Of a DNA stretch of 21,243 nucleotides, positions 2,013-8,056 are shown one piece after another; the first letter of the stretch is position 1; every line of letters starts with the position of its first letter. The stretch comes from a virus, in the IMG/VR virus record IMGVR_UViG_3300021962_000767, positions 1 to 21,243 of that record. One strand, given 5' to 3'. The position numbers were made by a program, and so were the translations under genes. The notes below the pieces were generated by a model. That model was given only the letters and a program-made list of their open reading frames with translations, had not been told where the DNA came from and made no database searches.

Positions 2013-2681
2013 CTATTTTTGAGCATCTTTCAAAACCTCGAAATATTGATACTGTTGACTGGCATTCTCACCTTCAAGTATACTAGTAAATCTTACGTTG
2101 CATACTAATGCAAATTTTTCAGATTTTTCGCAGAAGAAAGGAAAAGTACTATGCTCTGCATGTGCAGGAAAAATAACAATAGTGCCAGTTTTATTATCAA
2201 TAGGGATATAAAGTTTTTCTGTTCTAGCCCAGAACCCACTTTGTGGAAATCTAGGATTATGAAAAACTAATCTACCTGCAAATGGGTGTGGCTCTTCTGG
2301 ATCACGCACCACTTTAGGGTAGTATGTAATAACAAACTGATTTCCTTGATGCGCGTGAGGTATAGACCACTGGCCTCTTCTCTCAACGTTACCGAACATA
2401 TGCATTCTTGGTCTGGTAATATCTTCCGGTCCAAGATTTGGTACTTTACGTAGATAATGCCAAAGATATTGCTCTAAGATATTGAAATACTTCAATAAAG
2501 CTGGGGACTTATAGAGCAGTAAAATATTGTTAGGAATAGCGTGCTTGAAGCCGCTATCGTAGTGTACCATTCGCTCTTTAACGTATTTCTCTGCTAGTAC
2601 AGCTAACTCTTCATTCTCTTGTTCGGTTAGCCTGAGACTATCAACCATTACCTGTGTGGGATAGAAACTATGTAACATCAT
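2013..2681 (-). CDS. 2OG-Fe(II) oxygenase-like protein
   Basis: 222 aa. The C-terminal half has the double-stranded beta-helix pattern of 2-oxoglutarate/Fe(II) oxygenases, closest in my reading to the HxH-type phage family (2OG-FeII_Oxy_5-like). It has QWSIPHAHQGNQFVITYYP with His109 and His111 as likely iron ligands, then GRLVFHNPRF, then GTIVIFPAHAEHSTFPF with distal His177, then EKFALVCNVRF. At the place of the usual 2OG-binding Arg I see Lys189; Arg197 is two strands' spacing later. Such enzymes hydroxylate proteins or small molecules in the cytoplasm. Its start overlaps the radical SAM stop by four bases, so the two are probably made together and may act on one substrate. It could be a divergent or non-catalytic cupin. 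Confidence 0.75.
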   Translation of the reverse strand: MMLHSFYPTQVMVDSLRLTEQENEELAVLAEKYVKERMVHYDSGFKHAIPNNILLLYKSPALLKYFNILEQYLWHYLRKVPNLGPEDITRPRMHMFGNVERRGQWSIPHAHQGNQFVITYYPKVVRDPEEPHPFAGRLVFHNPRFPQSGFWARTEKLYIPIDNKTGTIVIFPAHAEHSTFPFFCEKSEKFALVCNVRFTSILEGENASQQYQYFEVLKDAQK

Positions 2682-4076: not shown

Positions 4077-4823
4077 TTAAATCACTGTTATCTTATGCTG
4101 TACTGCGTTACTATAAACTTTATCTATACTAAACTTTATTTCAGCTTCGTCACCTGGGTCTAGACCTAGCGCTGTAAAATTAATATTAGCTTTGCCGTCT
4201 TTAATTTGTACAACATTATGTGGTAAATAACCAGCAGTAGTTTTTATATAACTCTTGAAATCGCATTCAGTAAAAACGTCATTGTAATTATAATATTCAT
4301 AATTTAATGTAACGGTTTCGTTAGGTCTAATAGTAGAAGGTCCCCGTACAACAGGTCTAGGAGTATACATCTTTCGGTTAAAGCCTTTAGTGGGTATAAC
4401 ACCTGGAGTAATTACTCTTTCAGCTTCTATATTTGAATGCAGTCCGATTCTCTTATCAACCGTTACAAGCCAAATCGCATCAAGAAAATTTTTCGATTCA
4501 GGTAAGAAAATAAGGTGAATAGGATAACTCTGCTTAAAGATATGAGCTAGTTCTATAATTTTTATTGAGGTAAGTTCTGTAAAGCCTAGTGCGTTGTATC
4601 CTACATCAGGACTAACTATAGCGTTCTCGTTACTATGTGCTTTATAGAAAGGAAAAACGTATCTAGAAAAAGCGTAAAAATCGCTACGTGCTTTAAGTGT
4701 TGCTAGATCTAGTCGTTGACCATTCAATAGGGCATATTCAAGGTGTATTTCTAGGTCAAGCTCGATACCGTGACCGAATATTTTATCACCCTCACCTTCA
4801 CTTTCATAAACCCAAAGTGGCAT
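4077..4823 (-). CDS. Unrecognised protein with Ig-like C-terminal domain
   Basis: 248 aa; I do not recognise the family. Residues 1-45 are acidic (MPLWVYESEGEGDKIF). Residues 46-135 mix helix and strand, with hydrophobic segments such as PIHLIFLPES and DAIWLVTVDK. Residues about 155-248 have the strand spacing of an Ig/fibronectin-like fold (PRPVVRGPSTIRPNETVTLN through GLDPGDEAEIKFSIDKVYSN to HKITVI). There is no signal peptide or membrane segment. An AGG-type ribosome site precedes the start, and the stop is 10 nt before the radical SAM start. It sits between the Cys/Hint protein and two modifying enzymes, so it could be a virion decoration protein, an enzyme substrate, or a partner presenting the substrate. 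None of these can be shown from sequence. Confidence 0.72.
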   Translation of the reverse strand: MPLWVYESEGEGDKIFGHGIELDLEIHLEYALLNGQRLDLATLKARSDFYAFSRYVFPFYKAHSNENAIVSPDVGYNALGFTELTSIKIIELAHIFKQSYPIHLIFLPESKNFLDAIWLVTVDKRIGLHSNIEAERVITPGVIPTKGFNRKMYTPRPVVRGPSTIRPNETVTLNYEYYNYNDVFTECDFKSYIKTTAGYLPHNVVQIKDGKANINFTALGLDPGDEAEIKFSIDKVYSNAVQHKITVI

Positions 4824-4849: not shown

Positions 4850-5653
4850 TTATATAGGTTGCCAGGTCTCGTAGTTAAAGTCCTCGTCGTGTGCCCATCC
4901 TGTTACTACTTTATTATCAACGAGGTGAGTATGTGAGCCGTCTAAGATAAGTGTATAAACTGGCATAGAAGAATGAGCAGTAACATCTTTTTCGATACTG
5001 AAAATTTCTTCCTCACCATTTTCAGTGACGAAAGACATTCCAACTTCTAATAGAGAAACAGGCGTGTTTTTAAATCTTTTATTGGTACGCTCGCCTTTAT
5101 TGCCATCACTATCAATAGTTACAACAGTGGTATAATCAGTAGTAGCCTTACTTACACTAAGTGCAGCCCATCCTTTATTAGTCCAATGTCTATGCTCTGG
5201 AGTAGTTTTATGCGTATTATTAATAATGAACAACTCATTATTATTTAACGGGCCTTCATGAAGGGCGATTACTGTATTAATATAACCGAATCCACCATAT
5301 ACTCTATCACCTACAACGATTTCATCGATTCGCTTTAAGCTTTTGTCATGCATTACAACTAAACTATCGCCAGGGAAACAGGTCGTATCTGTTGAACATG
5401 CACAGGCGCAGTCACATGCACAGTCGCATGCGCAGTTACCATCTGAATTATAGAAAGCGTTAAAGGCTATAGAGCCGGAAGAAAAATAAGTAGCTTCATT
5501 ACCAGCCTTGCGGTAACGTCTACCTCTATAATAGTTTAAATTATATAGATTAGCATTATTAGTGCCGTAGTTAAATCCATCTCTGTTAGTATAGTTAACA
5601 AAGTTATCTCTAATATTTGAAAAACTTAACGCTCCTGAAGTAACGGTAGGCAT
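4850..5653 (-). CDS. Virion-type protein with Cys-X-Cys tract and Hint autoprocessing domain
   Basis: 267 aa in three parts. Residues 1-48 (SGALSFSNIRDNF, then NLYNLNYYRGRRYR) resemble a short N-terminal domain of marine phage structural proteins with the pattern I-S-(L/F)-S-x-I-R ... Y-Y-R-G. Residues 74-86 alternate Cys with Ala/Asp, giving seven Cys in 13 residues, followed by STDTT. Residues 92-256 fit a Hint (hedgehog/intein) fold: Cys92 in CFPGDSLVVM as N-terminal nucleophile, a KRIDEIVVGDRVYG strand, a TPEHRHW block-B motif (Thr151, His154), and VYTLILDGSHTHLVDNKVV as the C-terminal strands. The terminal His-Asn of splicing inteins is not evident, so cleavage at Thr91-Cys92 without splicing is the likeliest activity. 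It lies 3 nt after the S74 fibre gene, so it is probably a tail component. Its processed state is inference. Confidence 0.78.
   Translation of the reverse strand: MPTVTSGALSFSNIRDNFVNYTNRDGFNYGTNNANLYNLNYYRGRRYRKAGNEATYFSSGSIAFNAFYNSDGNCACDCACDCACACSTDTTCFPGDSLVVMHDKSLKRIDEIVVGDRVYGGFGYINTVIALHEGPLNNNELFIINNTHKTTPEHRHWTNKGWAALSVSKATTDYTTVVTIDSDGNKGERTNKRFKNTPVSLLEVGMSFVTENGEEEIFSIEKDVTAHSSMPVYTLILDGSHTHLVDNKVVTGWAHDEDFNYETWQPI
5396..5434 (-). other. Alternating Cys-X-Cys tract (seven Cys in 13 residues)
   Basis: Encodes residues 74-86 of the Hint protein, CACDCACDCACAC, five residues before the Hint nucleophile Cys92. Apart from these and Cys92 I count no other Cys in the protein. The tract could coordinate metal, form interchain disulfides, or be the target of the radical SAM enzyme encoded two genes downstream. 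The choice between these is open. Confidence 0.9.
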
Positions 5654-5656
5654 ATC

Positions 5657-8056
5657 TTATAGATCCTTACTCTCTAGTTCAGCAACTTTAGCTCTAAGCT
5701 CGTTTACTTCTGAAGTCAACTCTTTTACTGCTTCTACGATAAGGGCTGTAATCTGCTGATTCATTTTAATCGTCTTATATGTATTGTCAAAAGGAGCAGG
5801 TGCAATAGCTTCTGGAATTACTTCCTCAACTTCTTGAGCTATCAACCCAACATCGGTACCTCTCATGGGTTGATCGGTATCTTCTCTCCAGTCAAATCGT
5901 ACACCGTTTAACTTTAGTAAGTCTTGAAGGGGTGTTTCTGAAACTACTCTTATATTAGTCTTTAGTCTGTTATCTGAAGCATAGGCTGTAATATTGCCCC
6001 AAGATTGCCAGTTGCCACTATCATCTACACGAGATGACCAGCCAAAACTGCTATTTAAAAACCCTATAAAACCATCATTACAGTGAACGTATCTATTACC
6101 TGAATTTGTATCGTTAAATTGTAGTGTGGGTGAAGTACTTTGAATTTGTGGTTGCCCGAACATTACCCCGCTTGTATTATTAAGAGGTGTATATCCTAAT
6201 CTAGCCGCAATATCCGTATAAAAAGAGGCAGCTTGCCCGTTCAAATTAGTGGCATTATTAGCAGTACCATCAATACTAACCCCTGTTAGTGTCTGTAATC
6301 CGCTTGCTCTATTAAGAGCTACACTCGTTGTACCAATAAAAGTAGTGTCTGCTTTCAGTGCATATGAAGCAGCTGCGGTACCGCCCAAGAAAGAAGCATT
6401 ATTAGACGAAATTGTACTAATATAAGTAGCATTTACGTATGTACCTGTAGCATTTGCTACAATACCCGTATTAGCTAAAACATGCAGTCCTGTAGTATTA
6501 GCTACAAGTCCAGTTTTGGCGTCTACAAATGTACCTGAAGTATTTGATACTATACCGTTATTGGCATTAACAGCTAGTGAACCTGTAGTAGTAACAGTTC
6601 CAGTTAAACCTGCACCGCTGCTTACAGAAGTAACTGCTGTAGAGTAACTCTGATCACCTCTAAGGAATGTTGTAGCATCAGCAGTACCTGAACCTAAACG
6701 AGCAGTAGGTACTGTGCCAGTAACTAAGTTAGTAGCATTAGTATAATATGCAGCAGGTTGAGTGGCAAGAAAGGTAGCGTTATTTGCAGCGCCTGAGTAC
6801 GCAGTAGAATTAATCGTAGCTCCATTTATATTAATGGTACTGTTTGAAACTGTTACGTTAGCTGTAGTATTGCCTACTTTAATCTGCGCTGTAGTAATAT
6901 TAACATTTGCACCGACATTAATACCTGTAGCGTTAGCAGTGGTAGCATTTACTGCACCTAATGTACTTAATCCAGTAACATTAAAAGTATTTGAAAATGA
7001 TACACTATTAAGTACCGCAAGTGTGCCGTCTATGTCAAGTGTTGTACTATTTGCAAAAGTATTTACTGAGCTATTGCCGAAAGTGATACTAGCTGTTGTA
7101 ATATTGACATTTGCACCAACATTAATAGCAGTGGTGTTTGCAGTAGCTGCGTTAATATCATTTGCTGTAGTTAATCCAGTAACATTAAGGGTATTGGATA
7201 TTGTAGTTACACCAGCAGCTGATAACGTATTTGCAGCTGTATTTCCTAGTATAGTAACCGTATTTGAGAATCTAGCAGCACCAACTGTATTGGAAGTAGT
7301 ATTAACAGTGAACAAGCTAGATGATTGTAGAACTGTAGAATTAACTACTGTTGTACCGATTGTTACCGAGTTCGATGCGTCTAGATTAGTAACATCAATT
7401 AAAGTAAAATAACCATTCCTAAAAGTAGAAATAGTATTACCGAGGTCGTAAGTATTGGTTACTGGTGGTATTAAATCACCCGCAACACTTAAATCAGATG
7501 TTGTGGTAAAAACACCGTCTACAACTAGATTACCTGTAAAATATCCATTGTTAGACGATACGTAAGTAGAATTAACTATACTATTACCTACTACAATTCT
7601 TGCTACTGATGAATTAGCTACTGCTGCAATTGTGCCAACACCGCTTGTTATAGCAATAGATGTAGAATTAATAGAAGCTCCACCTACAGTAATAGTATTA
7701 CTAGTAACAGTATTGGTTACAGCACTGTTAAATGTAGCAACTCCAGTCACATTTATAGTATTAGATAATACTAAAGCTCCAGAAATAGTCGCTGTATTAC
7801 TAACAGTTAGATTAGACGATATAATTAACGTATCAGTTGAGGATACATTGCCACCTCTTAGTGCGGCTGTAGCAAATAAAGTGTTAGCACCAAACCGACC
7901 AATAATCGTACCGTTACCAGTTGAAGTATTACCTGTAGCTGTGCCATCAACAGTAACAACATGGGTGGTCATGTTATATGCTAGACTATTAGTCTTAGCA
8001 ACCCATGTACCAAACGTATCGGTTGTGATGTCTAAATTTGCAGTAGTAATTGTCAT
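5657..8056 (-). CDS. Tail fibre with C-terminal peptidase S74 chaperone
   Basis: 799 aa. Residues 1-420 are Asn/Thr/Ser-rich beta repeats, including a 68-aa duplication (288-355 and 356-423). Residues 197-222 (PPVTNTYDLGNTISTFRNGY), 447-470 (GTVPTARLGSGTADATTFLR) and 596-625 (NATNLNGQAASFYTDIAARL) are motifs common in phage fibres. Residues about 694-799 form an intramolecular chaperone of auto-processing (peptidase S74): ASDNRLKTNIRV, then VRFDW, VGLIAQEVEEVIPEAI, and a terminal coiled coil (ITALIVEAVKELTSEVNELR). In endosialidase-type fibres this domain trimerises the fibre and cuts itself off between Ser and Asp. The equivalent bond here is Ser694-Asp695, giving a 694-aa mature fibre and a 105-aa released chaperone. 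It probably binds the host surface. Its start overlaps the stop of the coiled-coil gene. Confidence 0.9.
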   Translation of the reverse strand: MTITTANLDITTDTFGTWVAKTNSLAYNMTTHVVTVDGTATGNTSTGNGTIIGRFGANTLFATAALRGGNVSSTDTLIISSNLTVSNTATISGALVLSNTINVTGVATFNSAVTNTVTSNTITVGGASINSTSIAITSGVGTIAAVANSSVARIVVGNSIVNSTYVSSNNGYFTGNLVVDGVFTTTSDLSVAGDLIPPVTNTYDLGNTISTFRNGYFTLIDVTNLDASNSVTIGTTVVNSTVLQSSSLFTVNTTSNTVGAARFSNTVTILGNTAANTLSAAGVTTISNTLNVTGLTTANDINAATANTTAINVGANVNITTASITFGNSSVNTFANSTTLDIDGTLAVLNSVSFSNTFNVTGLSTLGAVNATTANATGINVGANVNITTAQIKVGNTTANVTVSNSTININGATINSTAYSGAANNATFLATQPAAYYTNATNLVTGTVPTARLGSGTADATTFLRGDQSYSTAVTSVSSGAGLTGTVTTTGSLAVNANNGIVSNTSGTFVDAKTGLVANTTGLHVLANTGIVANATGTYVNATYISTISSNNASFLGGTAAASYALKADTTFIGTTSVALNRASGLQTLTGVSIDGTANNATNLNGQAASFYTDIAARLGYTPLNNTSGVMFGQPQIQSTSPTLQFNDTNSGNRYVHCNDGFIGFLNSSFGWSSRVDDSGNWQSWGNITAYASDNRLKTNIRVVSETPLQDLLKLNGVRFDWREDTDQPMRGTDVGLIAQEVEEVIPEAIAPAPFDNTYKTIKMNQQITALIVEAVKELTSEVNELRAKVAELESKDL
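6800..7195 (-). repeat. 68-aa tandem duplication in the S74 fibre shaft
   Basis: Two adjacent units (protein residues 288-355 and 356-423) both start NT(L/F)NVTGL and share INVGANVNITTA at residues 311-321 and 379-389. DNA identity is high over the shared core near 7094-7126 and 6890-6922, then decays, so the duplication is old or under diversification. Weaker related starts occur upstream in the same protein (NTINVTG near residue 99). Confidence 0.75.

Follow-up and report, generated by a model that had tools for sequence, protein, structure and literature searches.

The window, a 21,243-nucleotide stretch of viral DNA (IMG/VR record IMGVR_UViG_3300021962_000767), is a T4-type phage tail region in which every gene lies on the minus strand, and it includes genes for baseplate wedge proteins and a very long PHROG 358 protein. 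The gene of interest encodes a protein with an alternating Cys tract followed by a Hint domain, and it is one of a series of closely spaced genes (Table 1). Relatives of the 248-aa protein are encoded at 57 of 118 radical SAM loci, where they occupy a fixed relative place ~1 kb before the enzyme, and the members that were scanned have no Pfam or PHROG match. This protein may take part in the system described below, as may the 2OG oxygenase.

Table 1. Positions of the tract gene, its encoded features, and the neighboring genes in the window
Feature	Position	Strand	Remarks
Tail fiber protein, 799 aa, with C-terminal Peptidase_S74 autocleaving chaperone	5657..8056	(-)	Directly upstream of tract gene
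Tract-Hint precursor, 267 aa	4850..5653	(-)	Short fiber/adhesin-type N-domain (SGxISFxxI...FY), Cys tract, C-terminal Hint domain
Asn73 followed by the alternating Cys tract of residues 74-86 (N-CACDCACDCACAC)	5396..5437	(-)	Tract alone, 5396-5434
Cys92, predicted Hint nucleophile	5378..5380	(-)	Residue 91 is Thr
Hint domain, residues 92-267	4853..5380	(-)	TxxH motif is T151-P-E-H154; ends WAHDEDFNYETWQPI
248-aa protein between tract gene and radical SAM gene	4077..4823	(-)	C-terminal half Ig-like by eye
Radical SAM/SPASM protein, 462 aa	2678..4066	(-)	CxxxCxxC at 80-87; full SPASM Cys set
2OG-Fe(II) oxygenase-like protein	2013..2681	(-)	4-base overlap with radical SAM gene

The window protein contains eight Cys, seven in the tract plus Cys92, and their order is CACDCACDCACAC (residues 74 to 86), STDTT, and Cys92. 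This is the arrangement of seven alternating Cys, five residues, and a Cys nucleophile given in the original prediction, and its span of 5378 to 5434 is exact. The chance of obtaining seven alternating Cys by shuffling the protein's own residues is ~1e-10. The alternation of purines and pyrimidines that had been noticed in the DNA is also there (77% over the 45-base tract versus 52.5% for the window) and is explained by the TGY, GCN, and GAY codons. Because the Cys codons (TGC and TGT) and the Ala codons (GCA and GCC) are mixed, the tract is not a fresh DNA microsatellite, and a microsatellite origin is rejected on the basis of these mixed codons and of conservation at the protein level. The tract is unstructured in the AlphaFold model, with a pLDDT under 50. 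Overall, it is real and looks functional.

The domain that follows the tract had been taken for a Hint domain, and several lines of evidence agree. It matches Pfam PF01079 (E value of 3e-5), PF05203, and PF14623, all at scores under the gathering cut-offs; it has profile matches to PI-SceI, intein, and BIL chains; and this part of the AlphaFold model (pLDDT of ~68 to 96) has fold matches to BIL2, gp41-1, and hedgehog. The features of the Hint/intein superfamily, which are Cys at position 1, TxxH in block B, and the Hint fold, are all present. The C-terminal His-Asn plus Cys, Ser, or Thr of a splicing intein is absent at the end of the window protein, which has H255-D256-E257 and ten further residues, and we reject protein splicing because there is neither a C-terminal Asn nor a nucleophile. 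By analogy with known Hint domains, an N-S acyl shift as the first step is compatible with the presence of Cys92, T151, and H154. Given the His-Asp-Glu end and the lack of a splicing nucleophile, the thioester would be expected to undergo hydrolysis or to be attacked by another nucleophile, rather than to lead to splicing. The strength of cleavage may be variable, given this His-Asp-Glu end and the Hint domains of the L500 group, in which the Thr of TxxH is missing.

The 462-aa protein encoded two genes downstream of the tract gene has both the motif and the core fold of a radical SAM enzyme (PF04055, E value of 3e-10; AlphaFold pLDDT of 93), and C80, C84, and C87 are invariant. It also has the seven-Cys SPASM set CX9-15GX4C ... 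CX2CX5CX3C ... C (TIGR04085, 35.7 bits against a cut-off of 27), and C316, G330, C335, C375, C378, C384, C388, and C400 are invariant across 32 relatives. The PDB fold nearest to the model is the thioether-forming maturase CteB, followed by anSME, ChlB, TigE, SkfB, and SuiB. The NCBIfam neighbors are QhpD- and PapB-type maturases, with the QhpD family among the top matches (E value of 5e-15). Since every named maturase shown scores far under its curated cut-off (PapB, 55.2 of 340 bits; QhpD, 55.1 of 453 bits; SCIFF, 38.1 of 425 bits), we place the enzyme family outside these, near phrog_1802. In the AlphaFold model, the N terminus of the enzyme appears as a small beta unit with no recognizable RiPP recognition element; the substrate, for its part, has a fiber-type part where a leader peptide would be. 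The related enzyme of Achromobacter phage JWF is annotated as a sulfatase maturation enzyme; we reject that function because the constant neighbors are Cys tracts, with no annotated sulfatase in the vicinity. For the radical SAM proteins of Campylobacter phages, the match extends over only 27% of the query, and no fiber genes are annotated at their locus.

In hundreds of other phages, a Cys run at the end of a tail fiber protein adjoins a radical SAM gene. The whole window protein, used as the query against viral contigs and isolate phages, gave no match because each of its parts is too diverged, and relatives were found instead by searching with the enzyme. A search of viral contigs with a two-sequence enzyme alignment yielded at least 529 that encode relatives, and a search of bacterial genomes with a 32-sequence alignment yielded 103 relatives, mostly in Burkholderiales (Limnohabitans, Polynucleobacter, and Paraburkholderia) and Alphaproteobacteria (Magnetospirillum, Thalassobacter, Nereida, and Bradyrhizobium). 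When the enzymes from these enzyme-seeded searches were clustered at 80% identity and at least 5 kb of upstream sequence was required, 61 clusters remained. An upstream tract of at least four Cys is found in 46 of these clusters and one of three Cys in 7, for a total of 53 of 61 with at least three Cys. The other 8 have none, and one of these (L516) has the interrupted version NCNCDRNCGC. Enzyme copies that lack a tract upstream may carry one immediately downstream, as in L333 and L340. In the same loci, 56 of 1,490 open reading frames (ORFs) within 6 kb upstream on the same strand carry a tract. In the control zones, tracts occur in none of 512 ORFs farther upstream, in 2 of 2,273 ORFs located downstream, and in none of the 4,474 on the opposite strand, or 2 of 7,259 in total.

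The association also holds when the search starts from the tract. Using the DNA pattern AAYTGYAAYTGYRAYTGYRAYTGY for NCNC[ND]C[ND]C, which is blind to the enzyme, removing near-copies, and requiring at least 4 kb of downstream sequence, we found the enzyme within 6 kb on the same strand in 33 of 34 distinct families with a C-terminal tract. The sole exception (L334) has a weaker-scoring radical SAM enzyme farther off, and the enzyme is present in all three Hint families of the set. Over the 46 families with the enzyme, the median distance from tract to enzyme is 965 bases, and the tract gene is almost always just upstream of the enzyme gene on the same strand. Loci from an unrelated pattern search had the enzyme in 0 of 120 cases. 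A generic pattern of any seven alternating Cys returned mostly low-complexity DNA and reading frames that do not resemble genes, and it was kept as background. We conclude that the constant partner of the tract is a radical SAM enzyme, which the original prediction did not name, and that an enzyme gene adjoins a Cys-rich substrate, as in ranthipeptide and sactipeptide systems.

Two groups of loci differ in layout or in enzyme. Tandem tract proteins, two or three ahead of a single radical SAM gene, are found at L415, L424, L227, L505, and L252. L328, L349, L368, L389, and L436 encode tails of the form NCNCNCDCSDDSGGG or NCNCDCNCNCSDDS; L368 has no radical SAM match, those that exist elsewhere in this group reach only ~60 to 110 bits, and these tails are perhaps the like substrate of a second enzyme lineage.

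The number of Cys per tract ranges from 3 to 12 and changes in two-residue steps, which is the pattern that an alignment of homologues had been suggested to reveal. The residue before the first Cys is Asn in 56 of 64 tracts, and the 284 residues between tract Cys include 138 Asn, 64 Ala, and 54 Asp. Even outside the tracts, 192 of 252 Cys in tract proteins are preceded by Asn, compared with 19 expected. It looks as though Asn-Cys, with the variants Asp-Cys and Ala-Cys, is the recognized unit. In an NxxC system, the link is between Cys and a carbon of Asn, and each N-C-x-C unit in the tracts matches the NxxC spacing. Upstream of the tract, L245 (4763-5623, plus strand), L247, and L474 have, in addition, an extended region rich in Asn-Cys (GNCNNGNC...NCNCGNIxCxNC...NCxNCD).

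Cys-X-Cys repeats are good binders of Zn, Cu, or Fe, so the tract could instead form a metallothionein-like metal site or an Fe-S site at the end of the fiber, with the enzyme having some other target or only helping assembly. This explanation leaves both the near-constant enzyme neighbor and the Asn before most Cys unexplained, and we consider it quite unlikely. Another explanation is suggested by the proteins that carry the tracts. Six of ten tract proteins that were scanned match tail or tail fiber PHROGs, three of these six have collagen repeats, and the larger tract proteins are those matching tail fiber PHROGs. The small ones, including that of the window, have the N-domain SGxISFxxI...FYG, as found in several loci and in Providencia phage PSTNGR1. 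Since tract proteins are fiber-like and some have collagen repeats, three tails would meet, and ordinary disulfides could knit the trimers together, with the enzyme being unrelated. However, disulfides require no dedicated adjoining enzyme, and the very strong association with one makes this explanation very improbable.

The original prediction held that Hint cleavage would leave the tract at a new C terminus, and the Hint-less relatives provide support for this, because they carry a like tract at their natural C terminus, the same end that the predicted cleavage would create. The distance from tract to stop codon is 0 to 4 residues in 48 of 54 cases. A tract before a Hint Cys, at a spacing of 0 to 7 residues, is found in 20 ORFs with 18 distinct Hint sequences, including the window. 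The two situations can be compared in close relatives. L249, L250, and L260 have ORFs of 84 to 85 residues (stop to stop), and that of L250 terminates in ...GACACDCVCDCACVCGNGG-stop (CACVCGNGG-stop), while L251, whose enzyme is in the same 70% cluster as that of L250, has ...CVCQCGNGS followed by CFLAG-Hint. Judged from these sequences, the Hint Cys occupies the place of the stop codon, which is close to a natural experiment. On a quick tree of the enzymes, there are ~9 to 11 switches between a Hint domain and a native end.

The Hint domain is not the only domain found after a tract. In L426 (8053-8751, minus strand), L357, and L402, the residues directly after the tract are FWSDDTLKNR, with which Peptidase_S74 begins (22.4 bits; cut-off, 22), and the radical SAM gene adjoins downstream; from its position, S74 appears to play a role equivalent to that of Hint in this one family. 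In L333 (4633-5628, plus strand) and L340 (44-943, minus strand), where the radical SAM gene is upstream of the tract gene, the tract is followed by a common domain of ~170 residues (SKIxCxKLxxLGMMxxNxxxADQAxGxxL) without a Pfam or PHROG match, which is perhaps another removable cap. These positions suggest that what the families share is an exposed tract at the C terminus, with at least two kinds of removable cap, of which Hint is one.

The close spacing of tract and Hint Cys in 18 distinct Hint sequences bears out the prediction that the tract abuts the Hint domain, and it would also suit an obligate pairing in which the tract serves the Hint domain as a spacer or cofactor. However, most tracts occur without Hint, S74 replaces Hint at the three loci given above, and Providencia phage PSTNGR1, L395, and L413 have related Hint domains that no tract precedes. 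Hint domains of this sort are what the original prediction had named as its own refutation, so the obligate link fails, and we regard the spacer or cofactor explanation as extremely improbable. The protein of phage PSTNGR1 (L442, 4563-5516) has a like N-domain type and a Hint domain, and the range of Hint caps among phage proteins extends beyond the tract system. In L395 (6397-7987, minus strand) and L413, the tract-less Hint protein adjoins a separate small gene ending in ACNCNCNCNCSRGIL, as if cap and tail had been split into two genes.

Among isolate phages, only Achromobacter phages 2-1 and JWF have the enzyme at high similarity (44 to 45% identity to that of the window). In both, a fiber-like protein is encoded two genes upstream of the enzyme, and that of phage 2-1 has the form NCNCDCNCSCFPAGT-Hint, with the tract directly before the Hint Cys. 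The Hint protein of JWF is PJWF_00028. The intervening gene appears to belong to a family other than that of the window's 248-aa protein.

Based on the observed co-localization, gene layout, end position of the tracts, and enzyme family, we infer a RiPP-like maturation of phage proteins, in which the enzyme would cross-link the Asn/Asp/Ala-Cys tail, probably by thioethers, and Hint would trim the precursor. We consider this reading probable. Counting against it are the eight enzyme clusters with no upstream tract, the lack of a recognizable RiPP recognition element, the possibly variable strength of Hint cleavage, the unstructured tract in the model, and the suitability of CxC repeats for binding metal. 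In the first of the proposed steps, a fiber or adhesin protein would be synthesized that carries Asn/Asp/Ala-Cys pairs as a C-terminal run, and in the second, the adjoining radical SAM/SPASM enzyme would modify this run, most likely by joining Cys sulfur to nearby Asn, Asp, or Ala carbons (thioethers, as in ranthipeptides and sactipeptides). In the window, the Hint domain would then form a thioester at Cys92 and be shed, so that the tract becomes the new C terminus of a product of ~91 residues. Finally, the hardened tail would be located at the end of a fiber or baseplate-attached protein, probably at a host-facing tip, where it would stabilize the trimer or meet the cell surface.

The enzyme might also change the tract in some other way, such as by C-C links, epimerization, or desaturation, perhaps once the adjoining 2OG oxygenase has hydroxylated Asn or Asp. 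Enzymes of this fold do many reactions, the fold matches include anSME, ChlB, TigE, and SuiB besides CteB, and 42 of 118 loci have 2OG oxygenase-like clusters next to the enzyme gene. Nevertheless, the substrate is dominated by Cys, and both the best solved fold and the QhpD/PapB-type profile matches are those of thioether formers, which makes a different chemistry unlikely, though less so than the metal site. The idea of thioether links, raised in the original prediction as one of several fates of the tail, fits the radical SAM gene two genes downstream. A tail that is exposed by cleavage and possibly linked by thioethers is still the best guess, but the partner that defines it is the radical SAM enzyme, with Hint as one cap. 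In its broadest form, the proposal is that there is a widespread class of phage virion proteins whose tail is radically cross-linked and is exposed by a stop codon, Hint, or S74, with Asn-Cys as the recognition unit; we judge the prospects of this broader proposal to be evenly balanced.

Known cases of radical SAM cross-linking involve small peptide natural products and a few enzymes. Its target here appears to be tail fibers, the parts with which the phage meets its host, and if this is true, RiPP-type chemistry is built into the phage infection machine. Unexplained radical SAM genes in phage host-recognition regions would gain a testable hypothesis, and the C-terminal Hint domain would gain a function as a cap whose removal puts the tract at the end. 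Achromobacter phage JWF and prophages in culturable hosts are ready test systems. Our search of the open-access journal literature found no account that joins radical SAM enzymes to Cys tails of phage fibers.

The closest genomic parallel is the host recognition cluster of pelagimyophages, in which radical SAM cassettes occur in the tail fiber region of T4-like SAR11 phages (PMC7029224), much as the window's radical SAM gene lies in the tail fiber region beside T4-type baseplate genes. In the relevant passages of that paper the cassettes are given no function, and the word cysteine is absent from its text. Like BIL, intein, and hedgehog Hint domains, that of the window has a Cys nucleophile, TxxH, and the Hint fold. 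Unlike them, it is at the C terminus of a phage protein, lacks the His-Asn plus nucleophile end, and would be expected not to splice but to detach from a Cys tract that stays behind. Peptidase_S74 is likewise C-terminal, but it is an autocleaving fiber chaperone that differs from Hint in fold and chemistry. Among radical SAM systems, cluster 59 of Kostenko et al. 2022 pairs a radical SAM/SPASM enzyme with a peptide in which an Asp-Cys motif is repeated up to six times (PMC9062424); compared by its description, its layout is recombinase, enzyme, and peptide, with no phage fiber, Hint, or Asn-Cys reported. QhpD places Cys-to-Asp/Glu thioethers in a protein subunit (PMC8172795), but the gene context here differs from that of QhpD and the QHNDH gamma subunit, and the QhpD system has no alternating tract. 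As in the ranthipeptides (freyrasin, with PapA/PapB, and SCIFF/CteB), a radical SAM/SPASM enzyme stands beside a Cys-rich C-terminal core, but here the substrate is a phage fiber-type protein rather than a small peptide, and Cys alternate singly with Asn, Asp, or Ala. PapB forms Cys-Asp links in CX3D and tolerates 0 to 6 intervening residues as well as nested links (PMC9413430), which makes the alternating tract a plausible substrate for an enzyme of this type.
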